Source: Homalodisca vitripennis (taxonomy: Eukaryota > Arthropoda > Insecta > Hemiptera > Cicadellidae). Taken from it: a stretch of 64,000 bases of DNA. The first letter of the stretch is position 1; each line of letters begins with the position of its first letter. Position numbers and translations under genes: made by a program. The notes under the pieces were generated by a model. It was given only the letters and a program-made list of their open reading frames with translations, ran no database searches and was not told the DNA's origin. Shown here piece by piece: positions 57,341-64,000 of this stretch. Location of the stretch: assembly GCF_021130785.1 (NCBI RefSeq), contig NC_060213.1, forward strand, positions 97,208,501 through 97,272,500. Reading direction: 5' to 3'.

Positions 57341-57609
57341 AAAGTACTTAAAAATTCCCTGCAATTGAGTAATTCCCTAAAAACGTATTTGTTTTAATTT
57401 CATTTTATTTAGACCATTTTTATTTTTTTTATTTGTACTAGTATTACGTTTTGTAAAAATTAAAAAAAGCATGATTTTTTATTAAATTTTAATTATTGTG
57501 TACCATTTTAACGAAACATGAGTTGTATTATTAGTATTTTAGGCTTCCGAAACAAATTGAATTATATGCCATAGTTAGCATAAGAACTCCAATTTTCAAA
57601 TATAACAGG

Positions 57610-57755
57610 ATGAAAAGATTTCGGACATTTGCCATCGTTATGGTTACAAAAGGTATAACACGACGTTTCGAGGATTGGAATCTATCCTCTTCGTCAGGTG
57701 AGGGACCTTCATTTTGTACCCATAACGATGGAAAATGTCTGAAATCCTTTTGACC
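57610..57755. mobile_element. Foldback family F, copy 4
   Basis: The left arm AAAAGATTTCGGACATTTGC through CTTCGTCAGG is almost identical to the consensus. A short right arm (ATAACGATGGAAAATGTCTG, AAATCCTTTT) follows directly, so the centre and half of the right arm are deleted. Confidence 0.8.
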
Positions 57756-58139
57756 ACTATTATTTTTACCTTAAACTTTACTTCGATCATTTAACTAAGA
57801 ATATGTTGCAAGCATGTTCAAATTTATCAATAAAGCCTTCCACATCTCTGTAGTTGAAAACATAAGCGTAGATTAGAAATCATATAAATAAATTTTTATT
57901 CCAAATACCTGGATTTCCCTACATTTCCGTTGTTCTTGGGTTTTAGAATTTAAAAGAATTAAAGACTAGTCGTGGAAAATTAAATTAAAAAATAACATGT
58001 GTTTTAGTACTTTTTGTAAAATTGCTTCAAAAACATTGATTATCAACCATTGTGGCGTGTAGGCCACAAAACTATTCTGTAATACTATACTCTTCGACGA
58101 CTTCACTCTAGATCGTTTATGAAAATCTAATAACATACA
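57756..58139. other. AT-rich intergenic stretch
   Basis: No gene supported. Composition changes sharply at about 58140, where GC-richer sequence linked to the right-hand cluster begins. Confidence 0.45.
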
Positions 58140-58424
58140 GGAGTAGACCTCCCGCGGATCGAGCGCTAACATGGGCTCTTATGGGAGGGAGAAATTCCCT
58201 CATTTGCTGGAGAAATCCCTTCATGTGCGGGAGAAATTCCCTGCTCACACTCTTATCCTATGAAAATGTTCCAAATTCTGTCGAAATTATCGTGTTTTTC
58301 GGTAAAATCGGTGATTTGGGGTGTCAAAATCGTTGTTTTTCGGTAAAATCGGTGATTTGTTGGGTCCGGTGAGGGAGAAACGAGGGACGGAGGGAATTCC
58401 AATATGGCGGCGAGGGCGGGAAAA
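58140..58424. repeat. GC-richer repeat block left of the RING gene
   Basis: Contains GGGAGAAATTCCCT-type palindromic repeats (58189-58232) and two copies of GTTTTTCGGTAAAATCGGTG (near 58292 and 58334). It may belong to the left end of the integrated viral element or to its flank. AGGAGTAGACC at 58139 could be an AG-type Polinton end, but no partner is in the window. Confidence 0.4.
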
Positions 58425-58425
58425 A

Positions 58426-58598
58426 TTGGCGGGAACAGGGTAACCTAACCTCACTTTCTTGGTTTCCCGCGTATTCAATATGGCTGCGCCCATGATGAAT
58501 TGGCGGGAACAGGGGAACCTAACCTCACTTTCTTGGTTTCCCGCGTATTCAATATGGCTGCGCCCATGATGAATTGGCGGGAACAGGGGAACATAACC
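58426..58598 (+). repeat. 74-bp tandem repeat, about 2.3 units
   Basis: Units start TTGGCGGGAACAGGG at 58426, 58500 and 58574. Each carries AACCTAACCTCACTTTCTTG and CAATATGGCTGCGCCC; the first full units are almost identical. CpG-rich compared with flanks. Confidence 0.9.
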
Positions 58599-58736
58599 TC
58601 AAATGTAAAAAGGGCGGGAAAGTAAACTAAACAAGAGAAATAAAGACGAATCGTACCTTATTGTGTGATGCGGTGAGTCGATGTGGGCCTGGATGTGGTT
58701 TCGGAACATCCGTACTACGTATAGTACCCAGGTTAA

Positions 58737-58797
58737 ACATTATCCAGTATAAGAATCGGTCCAGAGAGCTGGTAGACATCCTACGACTGGATAATGT
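58737..58797 (-). terminator. 12-bp inverted repeat downstream of the RING gene
   Basis: ACATTATCCAGT (58737-58748) and ACTGGATAATGT (58786-58797) are perfect inverses with a 37-bp loop. The pair lies 74-134 bp beyond the stop codon of the RING gene. No AATAAA was seen nearby on the minus strand, so its role in 3' end formation is a guess. Confidence 0.35.
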
Positions 58798-58870
58798 CCC
58801 GTCCCTTTGGAATTTGGAATATAAATTTTGAATGTGAAGCCAATTGAATAATTAAGATAGAGGTAGAACT

Positions 58871-60633
58871 CTACCTGGGGAGATATATTGTGAATCTTCC
58901 CACAATCAGCTCACGGCACGTGGGGCATCTATCCCCCACTCTGTTGGAGCATGGACGGCAGAGTGTATGCCCACACAGTCGAAGAGCGATTGTTGGTAGA
59001 TTCGCAAAGCAAACGGGGCAGGACACTTCGCGGGGTTGAGTGGCAGGGGTTGATCCGTTGGACGGCACAGCGGTGTTTCTACGTCGGGAGTCCTCCTCCA
59101 TGCGGGTAGCTGTCTCGTATAGGAAATCCGCGAGGATGCTGCGGATTTCCTCCCAAGCGGCTGGAGCGGCGGCACGGAACTCCTCCTCGGGTCTCCGCAC
59201 CATCCACCGTTCGCGGGTTTCCTCCCAAGCGGCTGGAGCGGCGGCACGGAACTCCTCCTCCTCGGGTCTCCGCACCATCCACCGTTCGGTGTCGTAGACG
59301 GCCCCCTCACTGATGCCCTGCACCTGAGCGACTATACTCAGGGACCTTGACACCGCCCTCATTGCCTCCCATTGGGGATCTATGTCCTGTAACATAGGTA
59401 ACGAATTAAACAGATGAAACACTACGTAGTGGCATGGATAATGTAGGGAATGAAACGTACTGCAGATGGTGAGAGGAGGGGTGGCGAGCCGGCAGCCACT
59501 TCCATGGATATGAGGGACTCCTGTGAGGTGGGGTCGGGGGAGAAACCAGAGTGGAAGGAGCCACTACTGATGGGCGAGACTGTTGGTGGAGTAGACTGAT
59601 TCAACCTCCGATAGAACTGAGAGAGATCCTCAGAGGACTGTCTCCGGGTCGAGGGGTTGCGTCGGAAGTCCCAAGAAGTACTCAACTGTCAACAAGAAAT
59701 ATCCATTTTTTGATTCTGTAAACAGAGCGAAACCTGCAATATAATATGAATGCCCTATATACTAACCGAAATCGCCTCATCTGAGCTGGAATTAGATTCC
59801 TCCATCACCACCCTTTGAGTCGCCTCGTCGGGAAAAGTCGACGCCTCGGCTATAGCCCTATCGGCAGCAGCGATTAGACTCTCCTCAGAGATGTCAGAGG
59901 GGAGAGTGATGTTTGGGTTAGCATCACCGGTCCACCCGAGAGTCGATGGTTGAGACTCATCCTAAAGCACAAGTGAATTAATACATGGCGGGTCCCGCCA
60001 CCGGTTGCGGGACTTAGCAGACACGAATACTGCACGAATGGAAAATAGGATAACGGTAATCACCTCTTCAATACCGGCGCTTATGACATGCAGTCGGCCG
60101 CGTCGAGTGGTCACCCATTGCCCAGACCTGAACATCCTCTGGATCTGAGCCTCGTACTCGTTCTGAAATAGAGTTCGATTATAGGGACTGCAGTAATGCG
60201 TAATTAGTACAATACAACGGTAACAATAGTGTACTGACCCTGGTCACCTCACGCTGAAGGACAGGAAGTGTAGCCCGATCATCACCATTATTCTGAAAAA
60301 GAGAAAAATAAAGTTAGAAAAGCTGCCACACACCTAAGGAGTAAAAATTAGAGTATTGAAATGTGAGCTAACCATATTCAGATGGACTATAGACCCGCTA
60401 TCCGTAGTAAAGTATCGATCCCGGATAGCCCCGGGCACAGGGATCGGTTGACTCCTACGCAAACCGTTTGAAGTGGATGGTTGTTCCTAAAAAACACTTT
60501 ACAAGTTAGAAACAGTGTTGAGGGACAACTCGATAGAACAATAAATAATCAAAACAATAATTACCTCGAGATCGTTGCCAGCCACCACCAACAGCAACAT
60601 GGCGAAAACGGTAAAACTAGTTGCCACAGACAT
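58871..60633 (-). CDS. Spliced RING-finger protein with signal peptide (423 aa)
   Basis: Seven exons on minus: 60633-60565, 60486-60373, 60292-60239, 60162-60064, 59961-59767, 59685-59461, 59386-58871. All six introns begin GT, end AG, are 74-102 bp and fall in phase 0, giving one open frame of 423 residues. The start is the first ATG after a TATA box. Residues 1-19 (MSVATSFTVFAMLLLVVAG) look like a signal peptide or anchor. The middle is Ser/Thr/acid-rich and probably disordered. Residues about 286-334 hold a near-perfect tandem 24/25-residue duplication (ERWMVRRPEE...). Residues 375-409 form a complete C3HC4 RING: CPVC, 11 residues, CGHTLCRPC, 7 residues, CPTC. RING proteins of this layout usually act as ubiquitin E3 ligases. 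A secreted one would act outside the cell or in a host. It could be viral cargo, a captured gene or an insect effector. Confidence 0.8.
59149..59290 (-). repeat. In-frame 72-bp duplication inside the RING gene
   Basis: CCTCCCAAGCGGCTGGAGCG begins at 59149 and 59221; the units are nearly identical at DNA level, the one nearer 59290 having one extra codon. High identity implies a recent duplication. Confidence 0.9.
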
Positions 60634-60678
60634 AGCAAAGCTATCACAGCAAGTGCAGCTGCAGCCGATGCACCGCGC

Positions 60679-60685
60679 TTTTATA
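60679..60685 (-). promoter_or_regulatory. TATA box of the RING gene
   Basis: TATAAAA on the minus strand within GCGTATAAAAGCGCG, 46-52 nt upstream of the ATG at 60633. This predicts a transcript start near 60655 and a leader of about 20 nt, and makes 60633 the first usable ATG. Confidence 0.7.
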
Positions 60686-60859
60686 CGCGGACGCCTCTCC
60701 CCCACCGAGACTCGCACTTGCACCGCATTAACTGCAATTTGTGACCCACGTTTCCACACCACGGTAAGCCAGAATGGCTAGGCCGTAGGGGTCCCAGTGC
60801 GTTTTTGATTATAGTGAGTTTCCCCAGTAGGCCTATTCTCACTCTTTCACTTTACTAAT

Positions 60860-61334
60860 CACTTTACTCGGTGAAGCCTTTCAATGTGACCAGTATTTGT
60901 GTACAGCCCCAACCACCGCTGTACACGATAGCGATTCACTCCATTACAATGTATCGCTCCTCAACATATTTTTGTCTCCTGTAAGTTTCAATAGCCACTT
61001 TACTCGGTGAAGCCTTTCAATGTGACTCAAAAACTTACCGGAGAATTTTACATTTTTTAAATTTTTTTATTTTTTACAGCATCTAGAGCGAGGTACATAC
61101 CCCTGGACTTACGGAGTTTAGGCCTGCCATAGAGGTATCTGTCACACACACACACACACAACTGCTCCCGGTCTTACGGAGTTTAGGCCTGCCGTAAGAG
61201 CAGTAAAGAGCCCCAGGACTTACAGGTTTTACGCCAGCCTTAGGAGCTTACCAATCATTCACCCCGCTCTAGAATTTTTCGTATCTAACCTACAGTCAAA
61301 AGTCACTTTACTCGGTGAAGCCTTTCAATGTGAC
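60860..61334 (+). repeat. Three dispersed perfect 31-bp repeats
   Basis: Copies at 60860-60890, 60996-61026 and 61304-61334, all in the same orientation and identical, starting CACTTTACTC and ending TTTCAATGTGAC. The outer bases (CACTTT and AATGTG) partly pair, so each could form a weak stem-loop. Spacing is 136 and 308 bp. Confidence 0.9.
61108..61246 (+). repeat. Three related hairpin units
   Basis: The middle unit has CTTACGG (61173-61179) and CCGTAAG (61192-61198), a 7-bp perfect stem with a 12-nt loop AGTTTAGGCCTG. The first unit (61108) keeps the same loop with a weakened stem; the third (61219) is more diverged. All three are preceded by a CCYGGNCTTAC-like string. Confidence 0.75.
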
Positions 61335-61421
61335 CCGTCGGCGAGTCCTTTCAAGCCAACACGTCGGGATTCTCAACTAAATGCCGAACCCCTCCGCCCC
61401 TTTACTAATCACTCGCCGATA

Positions 61422-61955
61422 CTAATAAGCGTTGGTATTGTGCAGCTGTTTGTTAAGGATCTCGAAACGGCACTTTGCTGCAATCATTGCGCATTTCACA
61501 TTGGGATCCTCGGTTGACGTATGTTGTGGCAACGAGCAAGCAAACCTGTGTGTTGTTTTACAGCTACACGGATTGCCGGCCTCCTCGCACACTATATCGT
61601 CCAGTTCACGGACATCACCGTGAAACTTTCTCAAGAACTCTGCCTTCTCCAACCCGCGCGTGTAAATCACGGCAAAGGGTTTGCATAGAGTGCGAAGTAC
61701 ATTAGCTCTGTAGGGATAATCACCCTCCTCCCAAGAAATCTTATGGTAGTTATCTTCAAGCCAGCGAGCTGTTGTACGATTTTTGGCGCTCAACCGTTCT
61801 CTAGGAAAAGGTGGTTTAAATATAATTTGACATTGAAAAGAGTTTCCCACGATCGCGAGCTCTTTAAGAATAAAGGGTCTTTTATTGCCTTGAAATGCGT
61901 GAAATTCAACTACTGCCACATCCATTGGGCCAACGTTTGTACAAGGCCACTTCAA
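61422..61955 (-). CDS. Polinton-like element protein, unknown function (177 aa)
   Basis: The frame opens at ATG 61955; a second in-frame ATG (MDVAVVEFHAF) is a reasonable alternative start. Conserved-looking blocks: VVEFHAFQGN, FILKELAIVG, FKPPFPRERL, WLEDNYHKISWEEGDYPY, IYTRGLEKAEFL, and a Cys/His-rich end with CEEAGNPCSCKTTHRFAC. I recall this layout (hydrophobic 'v-E-h-GF' start, 'KElAi', 'W.egd', then C..C..H..C) from hypothetical proteins of arthropod Polinton-like elements. It weakly resembles a DnaQ-like nuclease fold start, but the catalytic acids are not clear. It overlaps the upstream ORF by 50 bp in the +1 frame. Confidence 0.65.
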   Translation of the reverse strand: MKWPCTNVGPMDVAVVEFHAFQGNKRPFILKELAIVGNSFQCQIIFKPPFPRERLSAKNRTTARWLEDNYHKISWEEGDYPYRANVLRTLCKPFAVIYTRGLEKAEFLRKFHGDVRELDDIVCEEAGNPCSCKTTHRFACSLPQHTSTEDPNVKCAMIAAKCRFEILNKQLHNTNAY

Positions 61956-62517
61956 GAGCTAATTTATGAGCTGTGGAGCAGAGGAGTCCCTGACTATCTG
62001 CTTTTGCAAATACGTCCTCCTCTACCAACCCTGATGCTAGTGCGTGAATGGTAAACCGTACAGACTCTTCGATAATAAAATTGTCTCTGAGAGCAATGTA
62101 CATCAGAGGAAGGCTGTTTGTAAACTGAGTCCATTCGGCCTCGTTAAGCGTTAAAGTATGCTCCCCGTCAAAGAGAAACACGTGCATACGACCGAAAACA
62201 TTTGTGACCTTGATATCCTCCTCCGTGTCCGATTTAATATAAAATTTGGTTTTATTCTCCAGAGCCAGGGTTATGGAATTGAAATGAGGAGTGATTTGAT
62301 TGAACACATCGTGTGACCAATAAACGCATCCCTTTTTACCCTTAAAGAGAACCCCGAGAGAGTCACCCCGATTCTTAACAAACCCTACAATTACGCATTT
62401 TGAAAGATCACTATCCAAAAAGTAGACAGATCTAAGAAAAACCCCGGTTAACGCATTGATACGCTCTTTACGTTTTGGAATCCGCGTGGGTTCCACGTCC
62501 ATAGTCTGCGACTCCAT
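61906..62517 (-). CDS. Viral-cluster ORF, unknown function (203 aa)
   Basis: ATG at 62517, TAA-type end at 61906. Contains a basic patch PKRKER near the N-terminus, VYFLDSDLSKCVIVGF, and a C-terminal region TLNEAEWTQFTNSLPLMYIA. No catalytic motif seen. Two inverted CCAAT boxes (near 62570 and 62596) and an AAAAGTAAAATTT stretch precede it, suggesting its own promoter. The last 50 bp overlap the next ORF; a frameshift between the two cannot be excluded. Judged coding from length, composition and position among the viral ORFs. Confidence 0.6.
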   Translation of the reverse strand: MESQTMDVEPTRIPKRKERINALTGVFLRSVYFLDSDLSKCVIVGFVKNRGDSLGVLFKGKKGCVYWSHDVFNQITPHFNSITLALENKTKFYIKSDTEEDIKVTNVFGRMHVFLFDGEHTLTLNEAEWTQFTNSLPLMYIALRDNFIIEESVRFTIHALASGLVEEDVFAKADSQGLLCSTAHKLALEVALYKRWPNGCGSS

Positions 62518-62586
62518 CTCAACGTCTGACGTAAATTCTCAAATTTTACTTTTAGACAGGAGAATTTCGACCAATCAGAGACGCGC

Positions 62587-63201
62587 TTATTCTGACCAAT
62601 GAGATTTTTTAGCAGGTGGTTCTTCCCCCTCCACCTCCTCCTCCCATTCGTATGTGAAAGGATCTATCGAAAAAGAGACATAAATTTTGTCACAGTCCCT
62701 CACATCCCAGGCGTCGCCATGGGATGTTAAATTAGCACAGTTGATGGTTTTAATTGTTTTCAATTTTCCGTCCTTCCACAAGGAAGCGTATACTCCGGCT
62801 TTGATACCCTTTTTATACCCTTTCAGCTTCACATCATCCTCTCTGCAAAATCTAACCCTAATTCTGTCAAAACCCGTCACATCATAAAACGCACTATTAG
62901 GTGTGAAATTAGCACAGTCGAGGTATTTACATGTCTTCATCTCTCCGTCCTTCCACAAGGAAGTGTACACTCCGGCTTTTATACCCTGTCTATACCTATT
63001 TAGAGCCTGTTTAACAGGATTATCCTCATCATCCGTGTCGTAGGCCTCGGGCTCATCGTCTACCTCAAAACAAACCTCAATTTTGTTAAAGTCCTTAACA
63101 TCATAAAAGTCGGTATAGGATGTACAATTAGTACACTCGAGGTATCCCAATAATTTCCCCTCTGCTTCTCCTTCCTTATAACTGAAAATGTATAGCGCCA
63201 T
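62587..63201 (-). CDS. Triple-repeat protein of the viral cluster (204 aa)
   Basis: Start chosen at the ATG at 63201 (MALYIFSYKEG), the first ATG after a TATA box at 63259-63269; the open frame extends 7 codons further but without an ATG. The protein has three diverged repeats of about 50 residues: each has 'y.s...dG..k....l.CaN.ts....yDV..fdkI.v.F'. Repeats 2 and 3 share GIKAGVYxSLWKDG. A short acidic linker (DDEPEAYDTDDEDN) separates 1 and 2. The pattern suggests a repeated beta-strand fold; no family was recognised. The C-terminus, PPAKKSHW, is basic. Confidence 0.65.
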   Translation of the reverse strand: MALYIFSYKEGEAEGKLLGYLECTNCTSYTDFYDVKDFNKIEVCFEVDDEPEAYDTDDEDNPVKQALNRYRQGIKAGVYTSLWKDGEMKTCKYLDCANFTPNSAFYDVTGFDRIRVRFCREDDVKLKGYKKGIKAGVYASLWKDGKLKTIKTINCANLTSHGDAWDVRDCDKIYVSFSIDPFTYEWEEEVEGEEPPAKKSHWSE

Positions 63202-63254
63202 CGTTGCGAGAGTGTTCAACACTGGGTAGGTAATGTACGTCGGCGTAGGAGTCG

Positions 63255-63330
63255 CTCAATTTATACAATTACCCCACCCTAACAATTACCCCCACCCTAA
63301 CAATTACCCCCACCCTAACAATACAGCCCC
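63255..63330 (-). promoter_or_regulatory. Promoter with TATA box and 18-bp repeats
   Basis: GTATAAATTGAGC on the minus strand (TATA near 63262-63268) lies about 60 nt before the ATG at 63201. Immediately upstream are three tandem 18-bp units AATTACCCCCACCCTAAC (plus strand, the first one base shorter), which give closely spaced G-runs on the minus strand. The array probably binds a factor or forms a quadruplex. Confidence 0.6.
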
Positions 63331-63677
63331 TGTGTTGCGGTATCACGGAAGGGTTCAAGTAGAACCTGTAATCTCGAAAGAAACGGATCGTTCATTTCAG
63401 CTAACTGATCCAAAATCGTAATCGAACCCCTAATGTATGAATCCATATAGTGACACTGACAAGTGTCAGGACCTGACGTAGCGTCGGGCCGTGCCCACGC
63501 GCATTCCTTGAAATGGCCGTATCTATAAGAGTCACTGGGCACTCTAACTGTAGGTCTAAAGCGAGCAAAGAGTCTTCGCATGCCCTCGACCTTGTAGAGT
63601 AGTTCGTTCTTTAATGTTAGGTATCGAGTCGCCTCGACCGAGTCAGGCTCGTTTAGAAAACTGTTTAGCTTCTCCAT
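63315..63677 (-). CDS. Viral-cluster ORF, unknown function (120 aa)
   Basis: ATG at 63677, with a TATA-like CTTATAAG about 36-45 nt upstream (63711-63719). Contains RRLFARFRPTVRVPSD, then a cysteine/histidine group (ECAWARPD...DTCQCHYMD) that could bind a metal, and a Leu-rich C-terminus. Short stop-to-start spacing to the capsid ORF upstream (62 bp) fits a compact viral genome. Family not recognised. Confidence 0.6.
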   Translation of the reverse strand: MEKLNSFLNEPDSVEATRYLTLKNELLYKVEGMRRLFARFRPTVRVPSDSYRYGHFKECAWARPDATSGPDTCQCHYMDSYIRGSITILDQLAEMNDPFLSRLQVLLEPFRDTATQGLYC

Positions 63678-63739
63678 GACACAGAATGAGACACATGTAC
63701 AAAATTAGCTACTTATAAGTGTTTACCCCACCACCGCTC

Positions 63740-64000
63740 CTACACCATCCGCTTAACGTTACCCGTGAGCAGAGTGTATGCCAGGTGTGAGTCATATAGT
63801 ACTAAGCAGTAAGCCGCAGTGTTTGCAGCAATAGCGTTTTTAGTCTCAAACTCCAGACGCACGTCTACGGGGCCAGTTTTTATTGAATCATTCTGCTTGG
63901 AGCAGTCAATAACATAGAGAGGTACGTTACTTTTAAACGTGTTGAAATCAACTGTAGGGGCACCTTGTATCTGGTAGTATGAGCTCTGGAATCTGGTAAA
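63740..64000 (-). CDS. Double-jelly-roll-like major capsid protein, C-terminus (partial)
   Basis: 86 residues plus stop; the gene continues beyond the right edge. Visible blocks are TRFQSSYYQIQGAPTVDFNT, NVPLYVIDCSKQNDSIKTG, PVDVRLEFETKNAIAANTAA and YCLVLYDSHLAY. A 'vplyviDcSKQnesiK...VDvrlefe....paNTaAYcLvl.d' end is, from memory of the family, the last strands of the double-jelly-roll capsid protein in arthropod Polinton/Maverick-like elements. No frameshift in the visible part. The call rests on by-eye recognition of a short segment. Confidence 0.62.
   Translation of the reverse strand, partial: FTRFQSSYYQIQGAPTVDFNTFKSNVPLYVIDCSKQNDSIKTGPVDVRLEFETKNAIAANTAAYCLVLYDSHLAYTLLTGNVKRMV

Follow-up and report, generated by a model that had tools for sequence, protein, structure and literature searches.

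The question raised by this locus is whether a gene that pairs a hydrophobic, signal-like start with a RING finger, and that lies beside viral capsid genes in the leafhopper Homalodisca vitripennis, belongs to the insect or to a virus-like element, and what its product may do there. Herein "the window" denotes the whole stretch of 64,000 nucleotides that was analysed (C7:97208501-97272500), and the genome searched for further copies comprised 2.30 Gb in 14,901 contigs. The original prediction, read by eye from the letters of the window, had pointed to expanded effector families of plant-feeding insects as one reading and to viral cargo as the other.

The RING gene is laid out on the minus strand in seven exons. 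Exon 1 (60633-60565, 69 nt, 23 codons) carries the start codon and the hydrophobic signal-like segment, and is followed by exon 2 (60486-60373, 114 nt, 38 codons), exon 3 (60292-60239, 54 nt, 18 codons), exon 4 (60162-60064, 99 nt, 33 codons), exon 5 (59961-59767, 195 nt, 65 codons), exon 6 (59685-59461, 225 nt, 75 codons) and exon 7 (59386-58871, 516 nt, 171 amino acids plus stop), the last of which comprises a fast-changing stretch (residues 1-60), a linker, a C3HC4 RING (residues 123-157) and a C-terminal tail. All seven exon lengths are multiples of three and total 423 codons plus stop, a sum taken over the exons counted singly rather than joined; the introns measure 78, 80, 76, 102, 81 and 74 nt, and all six have GT-AG ends and are in phase 0. 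Both the placement of the exons and junctions in the original prediction, with the same coordinates and codon count, and its claim that every intron is in phase 0 were thereby reproduced. For six introns, the chance of phase 0 throughout ranges from p ~0.001 with uniform phases to 0.008 with 45% phase 0, approximately the share of introns in that phase. Inspection of the sequence upstream revealed a TATA box (60678..60685, minus strand, TATAAAAG), the first base of which lies 52 bp before the ATG. A protein of another copy deposited at NCBI, J6590_092487, spans all six junctions without an insertion or deletion at any of them; its exon 1 is identical (23/23), and it differs at 5 of 239 aligned residues in exons 1-6 and at 17 of 146 in exon 7. 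The published H. vitripennis annotation (PMC8496328) used predictors trained on RNA-seq. From the comparison of sequence across copies, we infer that the gene is spliced.

The RING in exon 7 has the spacing C-x2-C-x11-C-x1-H-x2-C-x2-C-x7-C-x2-C, with all eight zinc ligands of a C3HC4 finger, and matches Pfam PF13920 at 34.7 bits (cut-off 27), so that the complete C-terminal RING originally claimed is indeed present. Its best match by sequence among solved structures is the third RING finger of MIB1 (28.3 bits), with an alignment that takes in the C-terminal tail to its last residues; the likeness between MIB1 and the leafhopper protein is limited to the RING. No BIR domain was found in six of the seven exons scanned singly (exon 3, with 18 amino acids, being too short) or in full-length J6590_092487, and no Pfam domain besides the RING scored above cut-off in the pieces of the protein scanned. 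Structure prediction for exon 7 was of low confidence (pLDDT 43). The protein is a putative ubiquitin ligase, for which an E2-dependent activity may be expected. The signal-like start, likewise claimed beforehand, corresponds to a Kyte-Doolittle (KD) mean of 2.96 over 11 residues of exon 1, without a charged residue before the core, and the highest within-exon 19-residue KD mean outside exon 1 is 1.32. Exon 1 is accordingly a predicted ER or secretory targeting segment. If that segment were cleaved as a signal peptide, the RING would end up inside the ER or extracellularly, and we know of no E2 that acts in either place; an uncleaved anchor, or the double hydrophobic stretch of the sister gene described below, could leave it in the cytosol.

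The gene is embedded in the left end of a Polinton/Maverick of adintovirus type that inserted recently and measures ~20 kb. Near 58,140 the GC content climbs from ~0.31 to mostly 0.40-0.65, and at this point lie the left copy of a target-site duplication, TACAGG (58136..58141; right copy beyond the window at C7:97287162-97287167), and a left terminal inverted repeat (58142..58601) that begins AGTAGACC and shares 458 of 460 bases with the right end of the element. The inverted repeats are 20,520 bp apart and their terminal 279 bp are 100% identical; the RING gene lies 269 bp inward of the left one. Upstream of it, all on the minus strand, follow capsid-side open reading frames for 159 amino acids (61422..61901), 203 amino acids with a MOSUB-like predicted fold (61906..62517), 204 amino acids with internal repeats (62587..63201, the gene used in the linkage counts below) and 120 amino acids (63315..63677), and then the C-terminal end of a double-jelly-roll major capsid protein (63740..64000), the rest of which lies beyond the window (L029:1-930, L029 being the DNA to its right). 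The capsid match to PF21738 reaches 81.3 bits within the window and 261.7 bits in L029, which also holds an A32-type ATPase (PF04665, 33.1 bits, cut-off 22.8), an integrase (PF00665, 36.3 bits, cut-off 32.6) and matches to a PLA2-like and a fibre-like protein; a chromodomain behind the integrase scored 20.7 bits, under its cut-off of 25.1. PolB (PF03175, 158.2 bits) comes from a different copy, L022, where it lies at the other end of the element. The model of the 61906-62517 product (pLDDT 89) matches the MOSUB of a Bos-associated insect adintovirus (E 9.2e-8, TM 0.63, 12% identity), and has no match among PDB folds at E 0.001, the best being Pur-alpha. It is on the inverted repeats, target duplication, double-jelly-roll capsid, A32 ATPase, integrase, PolB and MOSUB-like fold that the assignment rests.

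A genome search with the terminal 279 bp gave 13 inverted pairs among the 40 places listed (892 candidates), nine of them spaced 20.4-21.8 kb, and a 6-bp target duplication flanks six of the seven complete copies checked, the window copy included (the C8 copy being the one without). Among the element's open reading frames scanned, Pfam returned no adenovirus-type protease or minor capsid protein, and it had no match for the 62587-63201 product. In IMG/VR no relative was found for the capsid end, exon 7, MOSUB-like or RING alignments, and PHROGs and NCBIfam gave PHROG matches of E 0.046-0.086 only, or none. Several further observations concern the element and its surroundings. The 61906-62517 product is 59% identical to an entry filed under Klebsiella pneumoniae, which probably reflects insect sequence within that assembly. 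The terminal repeat (58142-58601) varies among copies in blocks and tandem repeats, so that three or more end types can be told apart, a pattern suggestive of shuffling among elements, and the 62587-63201 gene contains a 144-nt direct repeat at 177-nt spacing. In the host DNA ~380 bp outside the element end there is an inverted repeat (57598-57765) with 54-nt arms that are 80% complementary, and at 1006-1647 a LINE-type endonuclease-domain fragment (PF03372, 26.8 bits).

The position of the RING gene within the element is repeated across the genome. A search with exon 7 gave 165 matches, 150 of them listed (645 candidates, 150 scored), and 20 of the 24 others that have 100% exon-7 protein identity among the matches listed were fetched as near copies. 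Eighteen of the 20 are colinear with the window through 64000; the alignment of L018 ends at its contig end, and L022 departs after 60422. Similarity starts at the identical bases (window position 58142) in all 20, and the host flanks are unrelated. In the search with exon 7, the 62587-63201 gene lies no more than 6 kb upstream, in the same orientation, for 84 of the 150 matches listed (median gap 3,211 bp, 81/84 at 3.0-4.2 kb), and it lies downstream or in the opposite orientation for none; these counts are a lower bound, as alignment shows the linkage in, for example, L009 and L014, which appear unlinked among the matches listed. Starting from the capsid side (the 62587-63201 gene, 150 copies listed of 508 candidates), the window-type RING was found in 83/150. 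Of the remaining 67, six were fetched; a diverged RING gene, termed here the sister, occupies the equivalent place in five of them, and the sixth has no RING gene within the 4.5 kb fetched. A search with a sister exon, based on 84 of 150 listed places (the remainder were type-A places or fragments), located the sister RING within 6 kb downstream in 54 of the 67 (at 3.3-3.8 kb) and in two more within 9.5 kb. Taken over both types, 137 of the 150 capsid-gene copies listed are followed within 6 kb by a RING gene of the same orientation, none by one on the opposite strand, and 11 have neither type within 9.5 kb.

The colinear copies, unrelated insertion sites and capsid linkage mean that the RING gene is integral to the element rather than an insect gene beside a virus: it is a standing gene of the element, present in more than 100 copies at a fixed place between the left inverted repeat and the capsid genes. 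The viral-cargo reading is thereby strongly supported, and the paralogues, which had been proposed as a check, do adjoin capsid genes in both the window-type and sister forms, and both forms have the phase-0 layout. The expanded insect effector family is not supported, since the 20 copies fetched are scattered along with the element terminus and not arrayed in tandem, and all 11 relatives in a protein search belong to H. vitripennis. A suggestion from locus tags that RING and capsid clusters share no contig, itself weak with one representative per cluster, was overturned by the whole-genome positions. Rearranged copies also occur. L022 (C4061:15837-34197, 18.4 kb, with the PolB end) is bounded by RING exons on each side, a layout that would result if the inverted repeat had expanded to take in most of the RING gene; comparable inverted RING pairs are found on C54 and C4597 among the exon-7 matches listed, and C6:29026302-29028097 is a 1.8-kb mini-element in which two inverted termini flank an exon-7 fragment.

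Ten exons make up the sister gene (L043-L047); every exon length is divisible by three in L047, and 49 of the 50 exons across the five copies are in frame. The nine introns between them, of 71-100 nt, have GT-AG ends and are all in phase 0. The gene's first exon encodes two hydrophobic stretches, its second is of EQPST type and resembles that of the window gene, and two adjoining exons look duplicated. The original prediction would have been called into question by paralogues with a different exon structure and no signal peptide; the exon number does differ, whereas the hydrophobic start and phase 0 are kept in the sister. In the last exon, 40 of 52 residues (77%) of the RING are identical between window and sister gene against 34 of 85 (40%) in the remainder, which makes the RING the constant part, and the eight zinc ligands, the CPVC and CPTC knuckles and the IYLP tail are common to the aligned members of both subfamilies. 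The neighbour protein (61906-62517) is 62-70% identical between the window and the five sister copies, and the equivalent place of the RING gene at such a distance implies long service to the element.

Within the window subfamily, all seven exons are open in 15 of the 20 near copies, and 18 of 20 keep the window gene's splice sites, with GT-AG at all six introns; intron 4 measures 91, 102 or 120 nt among unbroken near copies, and exon lengths are kept. All seven exons are open in one of five more diverged copies (six minus B1, mutually related, so that comparisons with them are not independent), and the breakage of some exon in the other four indicates that older copies decay. Among the 18 closest sequences, a set that leaves out L009, L018 and L022, the columns that vary number 1, 2 and 8 of 424 each at codon positions 1, 2 and 3, and 10 of 477 in introns; the first two positions of exon 7 are largely fixed by the selection of copies with 100% exon-7 protein identity, and the third-position excess in exons 1-6 is not significant (5/252 vs 3/504, p=0.13). 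Against the five related diverged copies, pN/pS in exons 1-6 is 0.13-0.42 (one-sided p 0.0003-0.052). Residues 1-60 of exon 7 show 9-16 nonsynonymous and 0-2 synonymous changes in the same comparisons, i.e., pN/pS >1 with p 0.11-0.22 and significance in no single comparison, which is suggestive of diversifying selection; recombination between subfamilies could also lie behind the high ratio. Measured against one diverged copy, these residues outpace the introns (16/171 vs 17/490, p=0.004), and exons 1-6 are not significantly slower than them (14/756 vs 17/490, p=0.09). The RING changed less than the remaining exon 7 at p<0.05 in four of nine relatives with an intact RING.

Between the RING gene and the capsid-side genes there is a non-coding spacer (60852..61334) with a 39-nt repeat at 60852, 60988 and 61296 and a 30-nt repeat at 61102, 61167 and 61213. 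Five sister copies match its part 60997-61279 at 85-89% identity, compared with 72-84% for the adjoining coding DNA; this part is a possible promoter, origin or RNA, and Rfam had no match in 58100-64000.

For the role of the protein, the explanation that we consider probable as a whole is an element-resident, ER-targeted, host-directed RING ligase with variable targeting exons. Its function is most likely that of an ER-targeted E3 ligase acting on the host, with splicing, secretion and activity predicted from sequence. The gene would be transcribed in the nucleus from its own TATA box and spliced by the host; the hydrophobic exon 1 would direct the protein into the ER/secretory membrane system, where the C-terminal RING, of the aromatic-tailed kind seen in MIB1, would recruit a host E2, and the variable exons together with the start of exon 7 would select insect targets such as defence, death or trafficking proteins, the ubiquitination of which would favour replication or persistence of the element. 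Host-directed ubiquitination is the most economical proposal since viral RING ligases are well known and nothing seen ties the gene to saliva or plants. Because all exons are in phase 0, exons may be gained, lost or duplicated without a frame break, so that the targeting part can diverge fast as the RING stays; the exon turnover observed consists of seven exons in the window subfamily, ten in the sister and one adjoining pair apparently duplicated. We therefore put forward, tentatively and as a proposal that may well not hold, a modular ligase in which a constant RING and a signal-like start are combined with interchangeable phase-0 targeting exons, and in which exon duplication, exon loss and rapid substitution would serve an arms race with the insect fought from inside the secretory pathway.

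Viral RING ligases used on the host include the baculovirus IAPs, herpesvirus ICP0 and gammaherpesvirus K3/K5. The IAPs likewise have a short C-terminal RING, although their BIR was not found in the leafhopper protein, and K3/K5 likewise are targeted to membranes (a prediction here), although the leafhopper finger is C3HC4 and not RING-CH; unlike all of these, the leafhopper gene is split into 7-10 exons. Polintons/Mavericks and insect adintoviruses have in common with this element PolB, integrase, A32-type ATPase, double-jelly-roll capsid, a size of ~20 kb, inverted repeats, a 6-bp target duplication and a MOSUB-like protein, to which the leafhopper element adds a RING gene of six to nine introns with a hydrophobic start beside one inverted repeat. 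We found no report of such a gene in Polintons or adintoviruses in the open-access literature, including the accessible portions of PMC11071296, PMC11071308, PMC5803895 and PMC6431247. Nematode Mavericks carry cargo, namely wosp proteases and krma kinases, described as acquired nematode gene families (PMC10680173), and are similar in that a non-structural accessory gene spreads with the element. The leafhopper RING gene differs in having no host homologue in one protein search and in its equivalent place in two subfamilies.

Other roles for the protein can be weighed against the same observations. It might be a virion or cell-surface protein, with a structural zinc finger and a part in entry or egress instead of ubiquitination, as its signal-like start and its position adjoining the capsid genes on the same strand would allow; yet the ligands, knuckles and tail of the RING are kept in both subfamilies, and its own TATA box and introns set it apart from the long open frames of the capsid side, and we regard such a role as improbable. 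Somewhat less credit still can be given to protection of the insect or the element from other viruses, by superinfection exclusion or as a domesticated defence ligase. The high copy number and the intact reading frames of 15 of the 20 near copies leave room for such co-option, and antiviral action by Polinton-like elements has been mentioned for protists (PMC12220804), but the single short derivative inspected (C6:29026302-29028097) has an exon-7 fragment only.

It is very unlikely that the protein is a plant-directed salivary effector of the leafhopper that was captured and spread by the element, in the manner of the SPRINGs of grape phylloxera. A hydrophobic start and a RING in a plant-feeding hemipteran, with fast evolution, would fit such an origin, and secreted RING effectors are reported in grape phylloxera (PMC6892190, PMC7376646); the SPRINGs (PMC6892190) are alike in signal-like start plus RING, multiple copies and fast evolution. 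However, they often form clusters of adjacent genes, according to the same source, whereas the leafhopper gene lies inside a virus-like element and its copies are dispersed by transposition rather than tandem. It is also equally placed in five sister copies with a 62-70% identical neighbour protein. A protein search with exon 7 gave 11 relatives, the best 99% identical, and none of the 11 lay outside H. vitripennis at E 0.001 in a search limited to sequences sharing 5-residue words. No sequence kinship to the SPRINGs appeared among these matches; an origin of the RING gene in phylloxera was dropped, as all 11 are H. vitripennis proteins. To our knowledge, H. vitripennis forms no galls, which also counts against an effector of this kind. 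That the exon structure is an artefact of reading by eye and the region a decayed non-coding repeat is scarcely credible, for although an exon is broken in 5 of 20 near and 4 of 5 diverged copies, the independently annotated J6590_092487 has identical junctions, exon lengths mostly stay multiples of three while intron 4 varies, and the sister's ten exons do likewise.

The host-directed ligase bears on two wider matters. Multicopy secreted RING genes of sap-feeding insects call for the exclusion of mobile elements before they are named plant effectors. According to PMC6431247, many eukaryotic DNA viruses have Polintons near their root. The effects of Polintons on animal hosts are little known; the RING gene gives a handle on these, as its expression, targets and exon turnover are measurable, and its retention suggests that virus-like elements maintain a rapidly evolving means of dealing with the insect they inhabit.
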